IMG/VR virus record: IMGVR_UViG_3300022745_000116
Coordinates: 1 to 33,323 of that record
Length of the DNA: 33,323 nucleotides
From: a virus
Strand: one strand, 5' to 3'
Within the stretch, counting starts at the first letter, position 1. Each line of letters opens with the position of its first letter. The notes beneath the pieces are model-generated. The model made no database searches. It had not been told where the DNA came from and was given only the letters and a program-made list of their open reading frames with translations. Both the position numbers and the translations under genes were made by a program. Of the stretch, positions 949 through 18,047 are shown in pieces.

Positions 949-3063
949 TTAGTTACCGACCCTTTTGATTGAGATAAATGAATCAATTGCTGCGGTGTAA
1001 ACCGAACCCGCATTTGTTTGTGAGTTGAAAACGTCAATCAAATCCCCAGCAAGTGCGGGCACGTCATGGCAAGTAAAATTTGTAAAAAAGTTTGTAACAC
1101 CAGCAACAGCCCAAGGCTGTGAGCGCACCACAGTGGCCGCATTTTTTCTTAGTGCAAATTGGTGTGCCCCTGCGCTAGCCCCCTGTTCAGCCACCTGAAA
1201 ACAAACGGCATAAGTGCCGGGGGTTGGGACCTTGAAGGCCCAAGAAGACCCTGTTGTCACCGCCGAGTGTGAGTCTTTTGTCTTGGTGTTAAATTGGATT
1301 GCCCCCGTTGCGGTAAGGGTTTGTCCTGCGCCATCTACAGTGTAGATAGCATTGACCGACTCTGTGGAAGCAACAACTGAAGGACCCGAAAGCCTAAAAA
1401 TTGAAAAGTTATTTTGTGAACCATCAGACACAGTAGAAAGTGAGCCACCAGAAGACTGGTTAACCATAACTCTAACGACATCACCCGCCACCAAATTTAA
1501 AATTTTTGACGTGGTTGTTGTGGTCACAATCGCCGATGAAGGCACACTATTTGAAATTGCCCGGTCTACGCTGTTGACTTGTATTTTAACAATTCGATTG
1601 CCCGTGGCATTTGCTGAAAAGCCGTTTTTGGCCTCAACATAATAAACCCCAGGGACCTGCACCACATAGGTGTTGCCAGAAATCCCACCCGCATTATCAA
1701 AAGCGACGGTGCCAAAAGTGGCCTGTGTGTCAGTGCCGCTTGTTACAAAGGCTTGGGCATTTCCCGAAACCACTTGTGCGGCAATCACTCTTGTATCGGT
1801 GTCGTTTGACATTTGAACATTTGACGACCAACCAGTGATTGGCACAATTGCATGAAAACTATAGCGTGTAGTCGCCGCACTAAGTGGCCCAAGGGCGCTT
1901 CCAATAAAGTTACCACCCGACGAGCTATAGAGGCAAAGCACAGCCGTCCCACAGGCATTTACGGTGCCGTCTATTTCTGTAGCACCTGAAAAGGCCGCAA
2001 AATACCCAAGGGATTGTGATTGTGCAATTGACGTGTTATCGACCTTTGTCGTGTCAATGGTGTACCCAGAAGGTAAAGCAAATTGATAAGTGCCGCTTCC
2101 CGCTGTGCCCGCTGCGGTCTGTTTAAATTCGTAGCGAAGCTCAATTGAGTCGCCAACCCTGCGCCAATACATTTTATCTTGGACAACCGTCCCTTTTGTC
2201 GGGTTTGTTGTTGTGCCCGTAATTGTGGCAACATAAGATTGCCAGTCAGTTACAACCGCCCCAGAAGGTGCCGTTTGTGGGCTAACCGAAAAGTCATCCC
2301 AGGTCATCGACACCGCACCAGCCGAAGCATTGATTGCCACAATGGCTAGGCGGTATTGGGTCGAGCTTGAAGTTGTTTGGAAGGTGCCAGTTACATAGCC
2401 CGTGCCACTTCCCTGGGTGATGCCATAAACACCAGAGGGCTGAATCCATGCACTTGCTGTGGTGTCGTAGATATAGACCGCAAAAGTGTTTGAGCTTGTG
2501 CCTGACAAATTTAAATTGGCAAGACCAGACACCACAGAATAATAGGCTTTGAAGGTTAAAACCTTTGCTTTGTCTGCGTTATCGATTGTAAACGGGCTTG
2601 AAATGAACCCTTGGCCCGCAGCCCATGCCGCACTTGAAGCCGTAGAAAGCGAATAAGTTTTTTGCAAAGGGCTCGAAGCCGTGGTTGCAAAAGTCGTGAC
2701 CGATGCCGCACCAGCCGTCACCGAACCTGTGGGAATAAGACTTGTCAGCGTAGTGTTAAATAGCGACCAGCCGGTTGTCGTATTGGTCTCAAAATCCCCG
2801 TTGCCGGTGTTGCCGTTGTAGTTTGAAAGGTAGTTTTTGCCGCCCGAGCTACCACCGATTTGGCCGGTTGTGATGGCGCTAGAAAGCTGTGAATTTATGC
2901 CATTGGCGGTGACATAAATTTTGGTGTCATTGATAAGCTGTGAAGCCGAACCGCCCGCTGCGGTCAGTTCAGAAAGTGACTTGACGTTTTCATTTTGGAT
3001 TTGCCCGGCACCAAGTGCTAGCTGTGTCCACAAGAAAAGCCCGGCTAATAAAATTCGCTTCAT
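949..3063 (-). CDS. Exported tail-fibre/adhesin-like protein with C1q-like domains
   Basis: 704 residues. It begins with a Sec signal peptide: MKR, a hydrophobic core to about residue 17, and a small-residue LALGAG cleavage region. After a Thr/Ser/Gly-rich stretch comes a jelly-roll carbohydrate-binding-like segment (about 93-265, starting with a GDFETN motif). Next is a phage fibre domain with the characteristic YWRRVGDSIELR motif (about 270-420). Two C1q/TNF-like beta domains follow (about 425-570 and 572-704), each with a PGxYxV strand and a later AGDxxxV strand. Four cysteines come in two close pairs. AGGGGGA precedes the start. Recognised as host- or surface-binding by domain type. A Sec signal on such a protein is unusual for a virion component: it may be exported rather than assembled in the cytoplasm. 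Confidence 0.75.
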   Translation of the reverse strand: MKRILLAGLFLWTQLALGAGQIQNENVKSLSELTAAGGSASQLINDTKIYVTANGINSQLSSAITTGQIGGSSGGKNYLSNYNGNTGNGDFETNTTTGWSLFNTTLTSLIPTGSVTAGAASVTTFATTASSPLQKTYSLSTASSAAWAAGQGFISSPFTIDNADKAKVLTFKAYYSVVSGLANLNLSGTSSNTFAVYIYDTTASAWIQPSGVYGITQGSGTGYVTGTFQTTSSSTQYRLAIVAINASAGAVSMTWDDFSVSPQTAPSGAVVTDWQSYVATITGTTTNPTKGTVVQDKMYWRRVGDSIELRYEFKQTAAGTAGSGTYQFALPSGYTIDTTKVDNTSIAQSQSLGYFAAFSGATEIDGTVNACGTAVLCLYSSSGGNFIGSALGPLSAATTRYSFHAIVPITGWSSNVQMSNDTDTRVIAAQVVSGNAQAFVTSGTDTQATFGTVAFDNAGGISGNTYVVQVPGVYYVEAKNGFSANATGNRIVKIQVNSVDRAISNSVPSSAIVTTTTTSKILNLVAGDVVRVMVNQSSGGSLSTVSDGSQNNFSIFRLSGPSVVASTESVNAIYTVDGAGQTLTATGAIQFNTKTKDSHSAVTTGSSWAFKVPTPGTYAVCFQVAEQGASAGAHQFALRKNAATVVRSQPWAVAGVTNFFTNFTCHDVPALAGDLIDVFNSQTNAGSVYTAAIDSFISIKRVGN

Positions 3064-3071
3064 AAATCCCC

Positions 3072-3446
3072 CTAAAATCTAGAATAACTGACCACAATGT
3101 CCGATGCGGTTGCGGGCGCATTGCCCGAGGTAAAGGTTATTGTTGACCCACTGATGGTGTAATGGGTTGTTTGTTTTTGCAATAAGCCGTTGACATAAAC
3201 TTCAACCGAAGCCGTTTGGGCTGGTGAAAAACTTAAAGTAAAAGAAAGATTTGTGCCGTTGACGGTGCCGGTCGGGACTTCCTGAACAAGTCCCGTTGAA
3301 ACCATGACCGGCCCGGTAATCGACGGCAAGCTATAGGTTTTGGAAGCATCCGAAGACCTGATGGTGTCGCCATCAATTGTTCTAGTCGCGGCCCCAAACG
3401 TTGGCACCACAAATAGTAGTGCCAAAAGGAAATTTAAAAAACGCAT
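3072..3446 (-). CDS. Small exported fibre-module protein
   Basis: 124 residues from the ATG at 3446. A longer TTG-started frame to 3458 exists, but GAGG six bases before the ATG favours the shorter form. A hydrophobic signal peptide (RFLNFLLALLFVV, then TFGA cleavage) precedes a mature protein of about 105 residues. The mature part has a short N-terminal motif (AATRTIDGDTI) resembling that of the next gene upstream, and a beta-rich module (GTVNGTNLSFTL to IVVSYSRF). That module also occurs inside the fibre protein at 4341-6080. No cysteine. Probably a surface-exposed beta-sandwich or adhesin-like module; exact role unknown. Confidence 0.7.
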   Translation of the reverse strand: MRFLNFLLALLFVVPTFGAATRTIDGDTIRSSDASKTYSLPSITGPVMVSTGLVQEVPTGTVNGTNLSFTLSFSPAQTASVEVYVNGLLQKQTTHYTISGSTITFTSGNAPATASDIVVSYSRF

Positions 3447-3470: not shown

Positions 3471-4310
3471 TTATCGGCGGGCGATTTCATACCAAAGTGA
3501 CCCATTCCAAACGAGGGTCAAAGAAGAGTTTGTGCCACCCACCCAGGCACCATTCAAGGATAAGCCTGTGCCATCAGCCAATGTTACTGTGTTAGTTGCT
3601 GATGTTGAAACAAGAATAAGCTGTTGTCCAACGTTTGTGGCTGCGGCAATCTGCGGCGAAGCCGTAACGGTAACAGCACCACCGGACCCGGTGATAAATT
3701 GAATGTTGAAATAGTTTGTGCCTGAAAAGGTCACACCTGTTGCGGCTACAATGGCCGTTGGTGAAGCCTGTGAGCCGGTCACAGTAGGGATGCTAGAAGG
3801 TGCCGCTGCACTTGTCCAAGTTGAGCCGTTTGATGTCAGGATGTTGCCCGAAGTGCCTGGGGCCACAAGTGACACATTGGAAGTGCCCGCACCCACAAGG
3901 ACTGAACCCGAAGTCAACGTTGCCAAGCCCGTTCCACCGTTTGCCACTTTGACTTGGTTAACCAAGGAAGTGTCGGCTGAAATGCTGGTAATGTTGTTGG
4001 TTGTGCCTGAAATCGTTTTGTTGGTCAGGGTTGCGGTTGCCGCGTTTTTAGTGGCGTCAGAGGTATTGTCCACGGCTGATAAACCCACGTCAGACTTCGT
4101 GATGCCTGTGGGGGTTGAGATTGCCGGGCTGGTCAACGTCTTGTTGGTCAGCGTGCAAGTCTCATTTATCCCACAAAGTGTGCCCGTTACCGTTGGCAAT
4201 GTGATAGTGGCCGCACCGTTGGTGATAGCCGAACCATCAAGGACGCGGTTTGTTGCTGCGAAGGTCGTAGATGCAAAAAGCATCAGACCAAGAATTGCTA
4301 GTTTTTTCAT
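3471..4310 (-). CDS. Exported fibre-like protein with tail-fibre repeats
   Basis: 279 residues with a textbook Sec signal peptide (MKKLAILGLMLFASTTFA, cleavage after the final AxA-like TFA). The mature protein starts with a DG-motif module like that of the 3072-3446 protein. It continues with phage-fibre repeats (TLTNKTLTSP, GLSAVDNTSD) and ends in a beta domain finishing W-x-EI-x-RR. The same C-terminal domain closes the neighbouring fibre at 4341-6080. Two cysteines sit six residues apart early in the mature chain, suiting a disulfide. AAGGAG precedes the ATG. Fibre-like content is clear. Why it is exported is not, and it may be secreted or displayed rather than part of the virion. Confidence 0.75.
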   Translation of the reverse strand: MKKLAILGLMLFASTTFAATNRVLDGSAITNGAATITLPTVTGTLCGINETCTLTNKTLTSPAISTPTGITKSDVGLSAVDNTSDATKNAATATLTNKTISGTTNNITSISADTSLVNQVKVANGGTGLATLTSGSVLVGAGTSNVSLVAPGTSGNILTSNGSTWTSAAAPSSIPTVTGSQASPTAIVAATGVTFSGTNYFNIQFITGSGGAVTVTASPQIAAATNVGQQLILVSTSATNTVTLADGTGLSLNGAWVGGTNSSLTLVWNGSLWYEIARR

Positions 4311-12251: not shown

Positions 12252-15200
12252 CTAGATGCTCACGGTAACGGTTGCACCCGTGCCGCCTGCGCCGCCTGTT
12301 GTGCCCGCGCCTGTAGCGCCAACACCGCCGGTTACTGGACCCACATGGGTGCCAGTCAGCAAGTTGAAGTTGATTGCATCGATGTAACCAGAGTCGCCAC
12401 CGTTACCACCTTGGCCCGGTGTCGCAAGGGCCGAGTTACCACCGTTGCCGCCCGTACCGCCCTGGCATTGCAAAAGACCCGTAACTGTTGGGCCTGATTT
12501 AAAGTTGTAGGCAAAGTAAATGTAGCCACCGCCACCGCCACCACCACCACCACCACCGCCGTTACCAGCCGCAGCCGCAGGGCCACCGGCACCACCGGCA
12601 CCACCCACAGATTGGATAAGATTGGAAGCTGTAGAAGCCGAAGTCAGCACCATGTCGGCATAAATGGCGACAACGCCGCCACCGGACCCACCACCGCCAC
12701 CGCCCCGAGCATTACCAACGGTCACACCGTCGCCACCGCCCGAAGACCCGCCACGGCCTGAACCACCACCAAGAATTTGTAAAGCTGCCCGCAAGAATTG
12801 GTTTTCAAATCGGCCCATAAGAACGCGATTGGAAGCCGCACCACCGGCACCCGCGGCACCACCTGCATTGGTCCCTGCGCCACCTGCGCCGCCCTGACCG
12901 CCATTGCCCCCATTACCAGGGGTGACACCCGTGGGTGCCGCAGCCGCCGTGCCCGCTGCCACAGTGGCGGTTGAGCCCGCTGTGCCAGCGTTGGACCCGC
13001 CCAACATACTGGACGCAAGAGCCGCGCCCGCTGTGCCGCCCGTTTGGACTGTGGCCGCACCACCCGCATTACCATTATTTCTGATGGCCCCGGCAGTTGT
13101 GGCGTTGGTTAAGTCAAGCGTTTGACAATAAATTGGATAACCTGCGGTGTTGATTTGAGCGCCCGCAAGAATTGTTAAAGTGTTGTAATAAACTGGACCC
13201 GTCAAAGTGACGTTTCCTGAAATGCTCACATTTCCTAAGTTACCGTCACCAAAGTCTTGGCCCAAGTTTTCTTGGTCCCAAGTCGGTACGCCACCTAGTG
13301 AACGCAGCAAATAAGTTGTAGTCCCCACAGGTAAACGAGTGGTGACGTTTGAGCTATTTCTGTAAAGCAAATCGCCCGCTGTTGTCAGGGGGTCAATCAG
13401 CAAAGTGCCACTTGCATTTGGTAAAATGTAAGCCCGGTCGGCGTTGTTGGCCGTGCCGTCGAAAGTTCTGACAAAGCCGTTTTCACCCTTCCAAGAAAAT
13501 TTGCCGGTGTTGTCAGCATAAAGGGCAAAACCAGAAGTTGGCGTTGTAACAGGGGTGGCAACCGTTTGACGTTCAAACACCATTTTTCCGGTGTTCACGT
13601 TGTCACCTTTTACCGTGGTTGCCCCGGTAATTGTGCCACCTGTTTTTTGAAAATATTGTGTGTGTGGGTCTGAAGTCGCGATGTGGGCATTTATTCCCAC
13701 AGTGACGCGGGCATCAGCCGCAGTAGAAAAATCAGAGATTGTGGCCGCAAGCTGTGTGCCTGTGTGGTTGCCACGTTGAACAGCATAAGCCTGAGCCGCA
13801 GCTTGTGCAGCGGCATCAGCCGCAGCCTGTGCCGTACTTACCGGCTTGGCGCTATCAGCGGTATTGTCCACATTGCCCAAACCGATGTTTGTCCTAGCCG
13901 TTGAAGCACTTGCAAGGTCTGAAAGGTTAGCAGATTTTTGAAGACTTGTGGCTTGTGCCGCAGCCGTTGCCGCACTTTGAGCCGAGGCAATCGCCGCAGC
14001 CTGAGCGGTCGATACAGGCTTATTTACGTCGCTCACGTTGTCCACATTGCCCAAATTTACATCTGTGGCTGTGATAACTACAGCACCAGTGCGGCCTTGA
14101 ACTGATGCCACCGCATCGGTATTGTCAACTTTGCCCCATTTAGTGCCGTCATAAATTGCCCAGTCCCCAACTTTCCAATCAGAAATCCCATCAAGGTTTG
14201 TGCTACCAGCGACATTGACAATGTAATAATAGCCTTTGGTGCCGACACTTGAAGCAAGGGCCGGTGAGTTGGAAGAAGCGTCCCAAGTTGATTGATAAAT
14301 TGAAGCCCCAAGGAGGCTTCCTGGGATTTGTGACAAAGGAATTTTTGAAGTCGCATCTAGTGTTGCAAGTCCAAGAGCCGCGCCCTTTTGGGCCGCAATT
14401 CTTGCATCAGCCGCAGTAGAAAAGTCAGAAATTGTGGCGGCTAGTTGTGTGCCGGTGTGATTACCTCGTTGAATTGCATAAGCTTGCACAGCGGCGTCAG
14501 CCGCAGCTTGTGCCGAGCTTACTGGCTTCACACTATCAGCGGTATTGTCCACATTGCCCAAGCCCAAGTTATTTCTTGAAGCCGAGGCCGAAGCTAAGTC
14601 AGAAAGATTGGCAGATTTTTGAAGGCTTGTGGCCTGGGCCGCAGCCGTTGCCGCAGCATCAGCCGCAGCCTGTGCGGTTGATACGGGCTTGGCGCTATCG
14701 GCGGTATTGTCCACATTGCCCAAACCGATGTTTGTCCTTGCCGCAGAGGCCGAAGCAACATCGGAAAGGTTCGCAGATTTCTGAAGGCTGGTGGCCTGGG
14801 CCGCAGCCGTTGCCGCAGTCTGTGCCGAAGCAATCGCCGCAGCTTGAGCCGTTGACACCGGCTTGTTTGCATCGCTCACATTGTCCACTTGGTCCAAATT
14901 TATGTCGGCTTTATCGCCACTTGTAGCTACAGCCGCAAGCCCTGTGATGGTGCTAGCGTCCTGTGTGCCTGTGTGGTTTGAACGTGAAAGCAAAAATGCG
15001 TCGGTGCTGTTCACTGTGGCGCCGCTTGCGATGCCATTTAATTTTGATTTGTCTGTTGGCGACATAAAGCCCGCCACAGAAGTGGTGGCAAGAGCGTGTT
15101 CAGTGCCGCCGCTTCCAACGTGTGAGCTTGGTACTTTGCCTGCGTTCAATTCATTGATAGCCGCCTGCACGTTTGTGGAAGACATACCGCCCGAAGGGGT

Positions 15201-15431
15201 GTGCGACACTTGGTCAGAGCTATAGTCACCACTTGCAGGCACTACAGCGCCCGAACGGCCTTTAAAACTTAAAACCCCACCACTTGAAAGAGCTTCAACG
15301 TCAACAAATGCGCGTGAGTCATCAATTTTGGTTAGGTGCCCGTTGGCCGCGTCCACAAAATAGAAAAACTCACCCGCGTTGGGTGTTGGAACGTCAGCCC
15401 TTGCATAAGTTTGATAACCATAAATGCCCAT
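12252..15431 (-). CDS. Long repeat-rich fibre with glycine-rich C-terminus
   Basis: 1059 residues, no signal peptide. N-terminal attachment-like region (1-95), HTGTQ turns, and five repeats of a GLGNVDNTADSAKPVS-type unit with alanine-rich helices (AQAAADAAATAAAQ) and LQKSANLSDLAS linkers. Then comes a central beta region (about 560-760) and a C-terminal third dominated by Gly/Ala runs, including twelve consecutive glycines, like collagen- or polyglycine-helix fibre tips. GAGGGGA precedes the ATG. It is encoded between head and neck genes rather than after the tape measure, so it may be a head or neck fibre, or a side fibre. The repeat and glycine architecture is visible; the attachment site is inferred. 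Confidence 0.8.
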   Translation of the reverse strand: MGIYGYQTYARADVPTPNAGEFFYFVDAANGHLTKIDDSRAFVDVEALSSGGVLSFKGRSGAVVPASGDYSSDQVSHTPSGGMSSTNVQAAINELNAGKVPSSHVGSGGTEHALATTSVAGFMSPTDKSKLNGIASGATVNSTDAFLLSRSNHTGTQDASTITGLAAVATSGDKADINLDQVDNVSDANKPVSTAQAAAIASAQTAATAAAQATSLQKSANLSDVASASAARTNIGLGNVDNTADSAKPVSTAQAAADAAATAAAQATSLQKSANLSDLASASASRNNLGLGNVDNTADSVKPVSSAQAAADAAVQAYAIQRGNHTGTQLAATISDFSTAADARIAAQKGAALGLATLDATSKIPLSQIPGSLLGASIYQSTWDASSNSPALASSVGTKGYYYIVNVAGSTNLDGISDWKVGDWAIYDGTKWGKVDNTDAVASVQGRTGAVVITATDVNLGNVDNVSDVNKPVSTAQAAAIASAQSAATAAAQATSLQKSANLSDLASASTARTNIGLGNVDNTADSAKPVSTAQAAADAAAQAAAQAYAVQRGNHTGTQLAATISDFSTAADARVTVGINAHIATSDPHTQYFQKTGGTITGATTVKGDNVNTGKMVFERQTVATPVTTPTSGFALYADNTGKFSWKGENGFVRTFDGTANNADRAYILPNASGTLLIDPLTTAGDLLYRNSSNVTTRLPVGTTTYLLRSLGGVPTWDQENLGQDFGDGNLGNVSISGNVTLTGPVYYNTLTILAGAQINTAGYPIYCQTLDLTNATTAGAIRNNGNAGGAATVQTGGTAGAALASSMLGGSNAGTAGSTATVAAGTAAAAPTGVTPGNGGNGGQGGAGGAGTNAGGAAGAGGAASNRVLMGRFENQFLRAALQILGGGSGRGGSSGGGDGVTVGNARGGGGGGSGGGVVAIYADMVLTSASTASNLIQSVGGAGGAGGPAAAAGNGGGGGGGGGGGGYIYFAYNFKSGPTVTGLLQCQGGTGGNGGNSALATPGQGGNGGDSGYIDAINFNLLTGTHVGPVTGGVGATGAGTTGGAGGTGATVTVSI
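13841..14910 (-). repeat. Five intragenic direct repeats in the fibre gene
   Basis: Copies of a roughly 55-60 bp unit encoding the NVDN-x-xD-KPVS segment lie at about 13841-13898, 14010-14066, 14521-14579, 14680-14740 and 14855-14910, separated by alanine-codon-rich stretches. The first and fourth share the run ggtattgtccacattgccca and continue almost identically. Such repeats allow fibre length to change by recombination. Confidence 0.75.
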
Positions 15432-15779
15432 TTAAATCCCCTCAACAATTCCATGATTTCTAAGGATGCCTGCGACCCTTAAAATTCTTTTAAAGAACAT
15501 CGATTTATTTTTAGCAACCACCGCCACTTTACCAGCGGGAATAAAATTAAAGTGACCCATTTGTTCAACATCGTCTTTTACAAAGCGAATTATGCCCCGG
15601 TTGATAACCACACCCCGGTTTACAAGCGGGCTTTTTAAAAGCATTTCTTGCCCCACAGGGATGGTGGCCGTTTGGCCCGCACTGACGGTTTGTTTTGAAA
15701 AGTTGTCAGGACTAGACCCGGTGCCATTTGAGCCCAGAAAATCAATTGTGCCTGTAAAGGGGTTAAATGTCTCTGACAT
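15432..15779 (-). CDS. Small virion-associated beta protein
   Basis: 115 residues. Starts with NPFTGTIDFLG, a phrase common at the start of small phage structural proteins. It continues with short repeated strands (LVNRGVVINRGIIRFV, then ILRNHGIVEGI) suggesting a beta-solenoid or beta-helix rung pattern. The ATG overlaps the stop of the upstream gene (TAATG), and its own stop abuts the fibre start (TAAATG), so it is translationally linked to the fibre. Possibly a fibre base or adaptor; no specific family recognised. Confidence 0.6.
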   Translation of the reverse strand: MSETFNPFTGTIDFLGSNGTGSSPDNFSKQTVSAGQTATIPVGQEMLLKSPLVNRGVVINRGIIRFVKDDVEQMGHFNFIPAGKVAVVAKNKSMFFKRILRVAGILRNHGIVEGI

Positions 15780-16048
15780 TACAGAAGCCCCCCGGTCAGG
15801 TCTGGGTCTTGTGGGGTTTGAAATTTTAAAGTGAGTGTTTTAAGGACCGTGCCAGTGAGGCCGCCTTGTCTGAACTTGTAAATGACATCATTGCCAAGAC
15901 ACTCTCGGGTGAAAGCGTCGGCTTCGCGGGGGGCTGCAAAAGGATTTGATTTGTCGCTGACCTTAATAAGCAAATCAGTGCCGTCACCGGGCGTGACTTG
16001 TTCACCTGATTTTTTTAGGACTTCGAGTCCATGGTCATTGACAGCCAT
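15779..16048 (-). CDS. Hypothetical virion-region protein
   Basis: 89 residues, ATG with AAAGG about 10 bases upstream. Mixed composition with beta strands near the C-terminus (GTVLKTLTLKFQTPQDPDL). One cysteine, no membrane segment. It sits between the capsid block and the fibre cassette and overlaps the next gene by the TAATG junction. It may be a small head, neck or fibre-linked component. I do not recognise a family. Confidence 0.55.
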   Translation of the reverse strand: MAVNDHGLEVLKKSGEQVTPGDGTDLLIKVSDKSNPFAAPREADAFTRECLGNDVIYKFRQGGLTGTVLKTLTLKFQTPQDPDLTGGLL

Positions 16049-16681: not shown

Positions 16682-17131
16682 TTACAGTTTTGGCTTGTAG
16701 ACCAACACCATCATTTTCAATTTGCCCGCAGTCAAAGCCGCGCCCGCAATTGTCAAAGAAAGTTTTCCTTTGTTTGCAACGTCAGCATAAAAAGGCACGC
16801 CGATTGCGTATTGAGCGATGTTGTTCAAAGCGAAAGCCGCGTTGCTGTAAGACGTGGCAGCAAGGTAGCGTCCAGAGCTTGCAGCATCACCAAGGGCAAC
16901 CGTTGCGGCACCACCAGAAGTGAAAGCCTGTTCAACAGTGTAAAAACCGCTGACAATGTAAGAACCCGCTGGAATGGCTTTTTTGCCACAAAGATCGATA
17001 GTGCCGACCGCGCCGCCTTTGACTGCAAAGTCATAAGAACATTCTTGAAGTGAATAAACCCCACCTCCCATCATTGCGTGTGCGCTGATGGTGGCAAACA
17101 TTGAGATAACAAGAGCTAAGAGCATTTTCAT
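16682..17131 (-). CDS. Exported head-decoration-like protein
   Basis: 149 residues from the ATG at 17131; the frame extends to 17170, but AAAGGA 8 bases before 17131 marks this start. It opens with a Sec signal peptide (KMLLALVISMFATISAHA, cleavage after AHA). The mature domain matches the common capsid-associated beta domain found next to phage coat genes, with motifs FAVKGGAVGTIDL, IPAGSYIVSGFY, FTSGGAATVALGDAA and a terminal LTIAGAALTAGKLKMMVLVY. Two cysteines, 18 positions apart, could form a disulfide after export. It follows the coat gene across a terminator-like hairpin. Decoration proteins normally bind capsids in the cytoplasm, so the signal peptide is unexpected. Confidence 0.75.
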   Translation of the reverse strand: MKMLLALVISMFATISAHAMMGGGVYSLQECSYDFAVKGGAVGTIDLCGKKAIPAGSYIVSGFYTVEQAFTSGGAATVALGDAASSGRYLAATSYSNAAFALNNIAQYAIGVPFYADVANKGKLSLTIAGAALTAGKLKMMVLVYKPKL

Positions 17132-17168
17132 TTTAGTTTTCCTTTGTAAGAAGTTAAATTTAAATTCC

Positions 17169-17194
17169 AAAACTTAAACGGGGCCGAAGCCCCG
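17169..17194 (-). terminator. Hairpin terminator/attenuator after the coat gene
   Basis: Seven bases past the coat gene stop, the minus strand reads CGGGGC-TTCG-GCCCCG, a perfect 6-bp GC stem closed by a TTCG tetraloop, followed by TTTAAGTTTT. This looks like a rho-independent terminator, probably partial, that would raise coat transcripts over downstream genes. Alternatively it could protect the coat mRNA 3' end. Confidence 0.65.
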
Positions 17195-17201
17195 CTTTCA
17201 A

Positions 17202-18047
17202 TTAACCGATAGTAACAACCCGTTGGCCATCCAATTGCTTAATTCCAATCAGAGTGTCAGTGTTCACGCGGCTTGCACGCAAACCATCAACACCAAGGTC
17301 AAACTCTTTTACAGCCAAACCTTGTTGAGCGGCCATTGTCATAAAGCTAGTGTGAAACCAGTAAGACACGTTTCCAACCAAAGTTGTGAAGTTCGGTTTG
17401 AAACCCAACAATTGGGCAGGCAATTGACCGCTTGTAAGCGGGCTTCCTGAAGCCACAAAGTCAGAAGATGTAAAACCAGTGATGTTAAACACGTCATTCA
17501 ATTGTGAAGAACCAAGGACGCACTCGCGGTTTGCCATTGGGACGTTTTGAGCATCCAACAGCTTTTTAGCTGCCAAGATGTCAGAAAGAACCAAGGTTGT
17601 GCCAGAGCCGTAGGCAATTGATTGGTCAGGGTTCGCAGCGTTTGGCACAATCAAAGAAATGATAAGTTTTTCAATTTTCTTTTTGATTGCATAAACAGCC
17701 ATTTCTTTCAGTTTTTCAACGAAAGAAATTGATTGAAGTGACGCTTTGTTTGTCACAGCAAAATCTTTTACGATGCGCTGATTGATAACCAATTCTTGTT
17801 GGCTAACAGTCAATGCTTCAGCGTCAGCGCGGTCACCTTCGTTAAGCACTTCGCCGTCGTCAAACTCTGGCACTGTGGAAATTTTGACTCTATCGCCAAG
17901 GTTTTGAATTTCACCTTCGTAGTCGCGTGAAATCAAAGAATTGAAAGGCAGTTCAGCCAGAAGAACGTCATAAAATCTAGCCGACCACACCTGTGGAACG
18001 ATTAGACTTACACCTTCACCGACTTGCGTAGAAATTAACTGGTCCAT
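17202..18047 (-). CDS. Major capsid protein
   Basis: 281 residues, ATG start with a strong AAGGGG site. An N-terminal segment includes SARFYDVLLAELPFNSLISR. An extended beta arm follows (GDRVKISTVPEFDDGEV), then a spine-like helix region (FVEKLKEMAVYAIKKKIEKLI), and late strands around LGFKPNFTTLVGNVSYWFHTS. This is the pattern of HK97-fold coat proteins annotated as P22-coat-like in many siphoviruses. It lies directly after a scaffold-like gene and before a terminator hairpin, as expected for the most abundant virion protein. No N-terminal scaffold or protease domain is fused. Identification rests on pattern and strong context. Confidence 0.85.
   Translation of the reverse strand: MDQLISTQVGEGVSLIVPQVWSARFYDVLLAELPFNSLISRDYEGEIQNLGDRVKISTVPEFDDGEVLNEGDRADAEALTVSQQELVINQRIVKDFAVTNKASLQSISFVEKLKEMAVYAIKKKIEKLIISLIVPNAANPDQSIAYGSGTTLVLSDILAAKKLLDAQNVPMANRECVLGSSQLNDVFNITGFTSSDFVASGSPLTSGQLPAQLLGFKPNFTTLVGNVSYWFHTSFMTMAAQQGLAVKEFDLGVDGLRASRVNTDTLIGIKQLDGQRVVTIG

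Follow-up and report, generated by a model that had tools for sequence, protein, structure and literature searches.

Tailed-phage virions are taken to assemble wholly in the cytoplasm. A gene lying directly after the coat gene in a 33,323-nucleotide stretch of viral DNA (IMG/VR record IMGVR_UViG_3300022745_000116, positions 1 to 33,323; here called the window) was characterised in a preliminary description as encoding a capsid-decoration-like domain fused to a Sec signal. The locus therefore poses the question of whether a capsid part can be exported and still decorate heads, or whether the domain has been moved to a periplasmic or surface role.

The cement gene and its product

The open reading frame at 16682–17131 (−) encodes 149 amino acids plus stop (MKMLLALVISMFATISAHA|MMGGGVYSLQECSYDFAVKGG...), which profile and structure matches identify as the precursor of a cement (decoration) protein. 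Its first 19 codons (17075–17131 (−)), past which the signal-less homologues begin, specify the predicted Sec-type signal peptide MKMLLALVISMFATISAHA, with a positive n-region, an uncharged hydrophobic core and an AxA motif near residue 20 (AHA|M; cut site MKMLLALVISMFATISAHA|MM), followed by a soluble domain; here and throughout, signals were called by a rule-based scan and reading by eye. The remaining 130 residues (16685–17074 (−)) make up the mature all-beta cement domain. An AlphaFold2 model of residues 21–149, built from a 52-row alignment of homologues, reached pLDDT 92.2 and pTM 0.82 and replaced a poor single-sequence model (pLDDT 60). Both the model and its structural matches indicate the jelly-roll fold of cement proteins. 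Foldseek ranked the capsid chain of Pam1 highest (E 2.5e-6, TM 0.70), followed by the KHP40 and KHP30 cements, and VIA-align gave Z values of 11.6 for Pam1, 10.6 for KHP30, 9.9 for KHP40, 9.1 for GP4 and 8.6 for BPP-1; among its other matches were the R4C tail-complex protein (11.3) and the Carin1 capsid (7.0). Five of the six best structural matches are cement proteins, the sixth (8gtc_T) coming from a tail complex. The weaker Z values mean little alone, because the coat of an unrelated satellite virus reaches 8.1. Sequence comparison points the same way at sub-threshold level: the Pfam family of the BPP-1 cement (PF21190, Bbp16) scored 15.3 bits against a cut-off of 27.1 (E 0.025), and the BPP-1 chain was the sole match in a search of PDB sequences (E 0.89). 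Directly upstream, the gene adjoins that of an HK97-type major capsid protein (MCP; 17202–18047 (−); phrog_267 E 9.5e-16, and Phage_capsid_2 above its cut-off), and the window holds a single cement copy. The assignment of the predicted domain as a cement is sound when the structural ranking of the model is combined with the extent of the matches and the order of the genes.

The ATG at 17131 is preceded by the Shine-Dalgarno sequence AAAGGA (17140–17145 (−); duplex −5.6 kcal/mol), whereas the in-frame ATGs at the cleavage site, encoding M20 and M21, have none (+1.2 kcal/mol). Sequence evidence thus indicates that the signal region is translated, which counters the suspicion that the extension might not be. 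The mature domain has two cysteines, C31 (codon 17039–17041 (−)) and C48 (16988–16990 (−)), standing where signal-less homologues have the Tyr of an EYxYDF motif and the Ser of an LSxK motif, respectively; among the 52 aligned rows, cysteine in either column is common to the window and one relative only, L002. The decoration-type domain, its place directly after the coat gene and its two cysteines, all noted in the preliminary description, are therefore confirmed, and the fused signal with its AHA site holds up as a prediction.

Relatives, gene order and recurrence of the signal

A scan with the single cement protein returned no close relatives, and the MCP served as the anchor of the survey instead. 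Phage records contained only weak cement relatives (in Cylindrospermopsis phages), and two other signal-bearing copies had no match among them, so that no cultured host could be named; a genome scan yielded only two MAG contigs, from Hydrogenedentota (without the gene) and Cyclobacteriaceae (signal-less), which may be binned phage contigs. Complete or partial cement genes were counted near 96 distinct MCPs, and the gene following the coat gene is usually this cement. Sixty-one copies begin at the domain without a signal (for example MSYFKNDNIQTAEYEYDFAVDGG) and 19, the window's included, carry one, while at 13 of the 96 MCPs, among them near relatives of the window, no cement was found, some contigs ending soon after the MCP gene. 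In L002, the nearest relative with the gene (MCP 88%, cement about 64%), both cysteines recur and the signal is present in a diverged form of its own; a signal is likewise found on 17 other distinct homologues that follow the MCP gene. The preliminary description would have doubted the signal had homologues started after it; most (61) do, but not the nearest or the 17 others, and the signal is accordingly real and recurrent. Its start has a good Shine-Dalgarno sequence in every signal-bearing copy, inner starts mostly having a weak one or none. Wider homologues outside the MCP group, read by eye, included none with a signal.

The cements fall into two subfamilies, marked by YDFAVDGG and GDDDDADGF, which match each other by profile and each include forms with and without a signal. 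An MCP tree of 91 rows, which does not separate gains from losses, requires nine changes of the signal (5–95% bootstrap range also 9), at least six of them forced by well-supported branches. Judged from this tree, the signal has been gained or lost at least six times among the relatives, usually together with a cysteine pair. The window and L002 form a pair within a clade of ten, whose other eight members (L140, L145, L148, L137, L161, L163, L165 and L168), the closest MCP relatives of the window apart from L002, have no detectable cement gene after the coat gene; the exported cement of the pair may for this reason have been acquired from outside. Cement copies number one per contig, at the MCP position, with L166 as the single exception, which indicates that the exported form replaces the cytoplasmic one. 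In L166 (L241:8738-9454) and L184 (4806-5402) a signal-less cement after the MCP gene is accompanied, 700–900 bp downstream, by a second, signal-bearing cement relative with 2–4 cysteines. The mature domain is under purifying selection (dN 0.07–0.43, with dS 0.5–2.7 or saturated), and residues conserved in the family are largely kept in the signal-bearing copies, although in the window and L002 this holds for only 68% of the conserved columns.

The two forms also differ in their position relative to a hairpin. In the window, a stem-loop, AAGCGGGGC-UUCG-GCCCCGUUU (17176–17197 (−)), lies in the gap between the MCP and cement genes. Of the terminator hairpin described at this place, only the hairpin is supported: the stem is 9 bp, but its tail is not T-rich and the scan made no terminator call on the coding strand, terminator and promoter counts there being at chance level. 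A hairpin after the MCP gene precedes the cement gene in 15 of 19 signal-bearing cases against 4 of 49 signal-less ones. Signal-bearing genes mostly start 68–111 nt past the MCP stop, behind the hairpin; signal-less genes mostly start 14–40 nt past it, most being separated from the MCP gene by about 20 nt or less, with the hairpin mostly after the cement gene, and in relatives lacking cement it follows the MCP gene directly. As read from these hairpin positions, the exported cement sits outside the MCP expression unit, and it may be expressed at a lower level or separately, as would suit the Sec channel.

Cysteine content is associated with the signal. Mature signal-bearing copies have two cysteines in 14 cases and none in five, while the 55 complete signal-less copies have none in 26, one in 24, two in three and three in two. 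Setting relatedness aside, even and odd numbers stand at 19:0 against 29:26 (Fisher 6e-5), and exactly two cysteines occur in 14/19 against 3/55 (Fisher 1.4e-8). The MCP tree offers four independent pairs, in which two cysteines go with the signal in 2.8 and against it in 0.0 on average, a result that is not significant with so few pairs. The sites of the pair differ between copies: C31/C48 in the window and L002 only, GFC..LYC in L014, GEC..GCK in L098, NCG..YCL in L100, SCA..ACT in L102 and GCA..KCF in L120, L122 and L127. Such differing sites are what would be expected if disulfides were gained repeatedly after export. Cysteine-containing proteins with a signal show an even-to-odd ratio of 26:6 over about 30 contigs, against 189:229 for other proteins (8e-5), and 16:6 (p 0.015) when the cement copies are left out. 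Five signal-bearing cements have no cysteine at all, so export cannot be explained by a disulfide alone.

Export signals are also found on the distal proteins of the window, where the preliminary description saw a theme common to the cement and three exported fibre-type proteins, and our scan agrees. Three consecutive virion-type genes each open with a Sec-type signal: a 704-residue protein with a C1q-like part and four cysteines (949–3063 (−)), a fibre-type protein without cysteine (3072–3446 (−)), and a fibre-type protein with the cysteine pair LCGINETC (3471–4310 (−)). The otherwise different uncultured podovirus MW202898 has a signal-bearing fibre with LCGINQSC. Among related contigs, signals on distal fibre and large proteins occur irrespective of a cement signal. 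Large signal-bearing proteins of 590–683 residues in L029, L004, L064, L120 and L180 have 10–14 cysteines, always an even number, and some have NYILNSGAE; these are candidate secreted receptor-binding proteins. Cases of a proposed exchange of TLVG..T for TLCG..C in signal-bearing fibres were too few to bear on the proposal. In L014 the next gene is likewise signal-bearing, its homologues elsewhere starting without a signal, and at L014:5727-7565 a homologue of the small 'DHGLEVLKK' gene (window 15779–16048) is fused to a signal and a long repetitive fibre-like part. The uncultured phage contig L266 has two fibre-type genes, each with its own signal peptide. The window also contains a 1059-residue gene (12252–15431 (−)) in which a long repeat (SLQKSANLSDLASASAARTNIGLGNVDNTADSAKPVSTAQAAA) occurs several times and whose end is rich in glycine.

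Decoration after export and its alternatives

We infer that the protein is a true cement that is exported, oxidised and joined to full heads once the inner membrane is breached at lysis, a reading whose chances we put somewhat above even. Translation from the signal-bearing start would give a Sec precursor, to be exported and cut after AHA; the mature cement would fold in the periplasm, form one disulfide between C31 and C48, and be kept apart from procapsids. Since heads are made inside the cell, an exported cement could meet them only when the inner membrane opens. The holin would then bring packaged, expanded heads together with concentrated, oxidised cement, and decoration would follow during or after lysis. 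Packaging need not wait for cement: the 13 cement-less MCPs, from relatives that persist, suggest that a shell lacking it can still be filled. The window has a lipoprotein-like ORF at 2–259 (−) (MKIILMLVASLSLLGC), and related contigs have several lipoprotein genes; these appear to resemble outer spanins, so the host is presumably Gram-negative.

That the exported form would perform the cement's job is argued from the one copy per contig at the MCP position, the kept residues and the purifying selection, and it is here that the principal competing explanation has to be weighed. A signal, relatives whose virions do without any cement, and the second signal-bearing relative beside a signal-less cement in L166 and L184 would all suit a domain that has left the virion for the host envelope, serving for example in superinfection exclusion, receptor masking or stabilisation of the envelope before lysis. 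Repeated replacement exactly at the cement locus, in both subfamilies, argues against such repurposing, as do the single copy (one exception), the ancestral place, the strong purifying selection and the retention of most conserved residues. Decoration after export, the first of the two options left by the preliminary description, is favoured on these grounds, and the move to a periplasmic or surface function seems unlikely to us, at perhaps one chance in several.

A further explanation is that the signal is weak or slow, so that a large share of the protein folds and decorates in the cytoplasm, or that a start at M20/M21, exactly at the cleavage site of the window, provides a cytoplasmic form. 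These codons lack a Shine-Dalgarno sequence, an ATG at that site is missing from L002 and most other signal-bearing copies, and the cysteine pattern matches an oxidising compartment, which makes such dual localisation rather improbable. Still more doubtful is an uncleaved hydrophobic N-terminus that anchors the protein in membrane or capsid and tethers heads to the inner membrane: long hydrophobic stretches occur in a few copies (L101, L115), but most have a classical n-h-c arrangement whose AxA immediately precedes the domain, signal-less homologues start where the mature N-terminus would lie, and the N-terminal loop of the Pam1 cement touches the capsid (PMC9698820), a contact that a hydrophobic helix would obstruct. 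An annotation artefact or chance untranslated extension, as the start of most homologues past this region might suggest, can hardly account for a Shine-Dalgarno sequence at the signal start only, a signal diverged yet retained in L002 and 17 others, and its association with cysteines.

Decoration of packaged heads by exported cement may belong to a more general pattern, which we advance tentatively and hold to be a little under an even chance: in a group of uncultured tailed phages, cement and distal fibre or receptor-binding proteins would pass through Sec, become oxidised in the periplasm and reach packaged heads and tails only once the membrane gives way. Evolution would have turned this route on or off several times. 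The data suggest that the particles of some phages are completed with components that mature outside the cytoplasm. If true, a Sec-exported capsid part that arose several times beside a sister form lacking the signal would give phage morphogenesis a final, extracytoplasmic step, explain phage use of disulfide-stabilised surface proteins and provide a natural system in which compartment sets the timing of decoration. The signal-bearing and signal-less forms of one family at the same locus make the question testable.

Relation to known systems

Cements of this fold are known; an exported one is not, as far as the literature searched reaches. No paper describing an exported capsid decoration protein was identified in that literature, which was judged mostly by title and abstract and covered few subscription journals. 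The jelly-roll cements of Pam1, KHP30/KHP40, GP4 and BPP-1 (Bbp16) resemble the window protein in fold and small size, and Bbp16 also weakly in sequence. Cements of this type sit on the outer face of the capsid, often as trimers at (quasi-)threefolds. The chains of solved relatives begin at residue 1 or 2, having been traced in virions from Met1 (BPP-1) and Ala2 (GP4) and hence without a cleaved signal, in contrast to the Sec signal and cysteine pair of the window cement (PMC3863775, PMC9698820). The 61 signal-less homologues (L013, L029 and L105, for example) belong to the same family and occupy the same locus right after the MCP gene, but differ in having no signal, mostly no or one cysteine, and a gene placed before the hairpin rather than after it.

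Late decoration has functional models in vitro, where T5 pb10 attaches to expanded capsids and to heads filled with DNA but not to procapsids (PMC5292684), and P22 heads, once expanded or mature, are bound by the phage L protein Dec (PMC7602432). Both bind only to expanded or mature heads and can be added to finished particles; their folds are unlike that of the window cement, and these papers describe no export signal. In Agrobacterium phage Milano, disulfides stabilise the virion, capsid decoration included, although these bonds are largely between different virion proteins and the passages concerned describe no export signal (PMC10491603). Signal-peptide endolysins, such as those of the J5a clade, are phage proteins exported by Sec before lysis (PMC8878798), and so share their route with the window cement while differing from it in being lysis enzymes and not parts of the virion.
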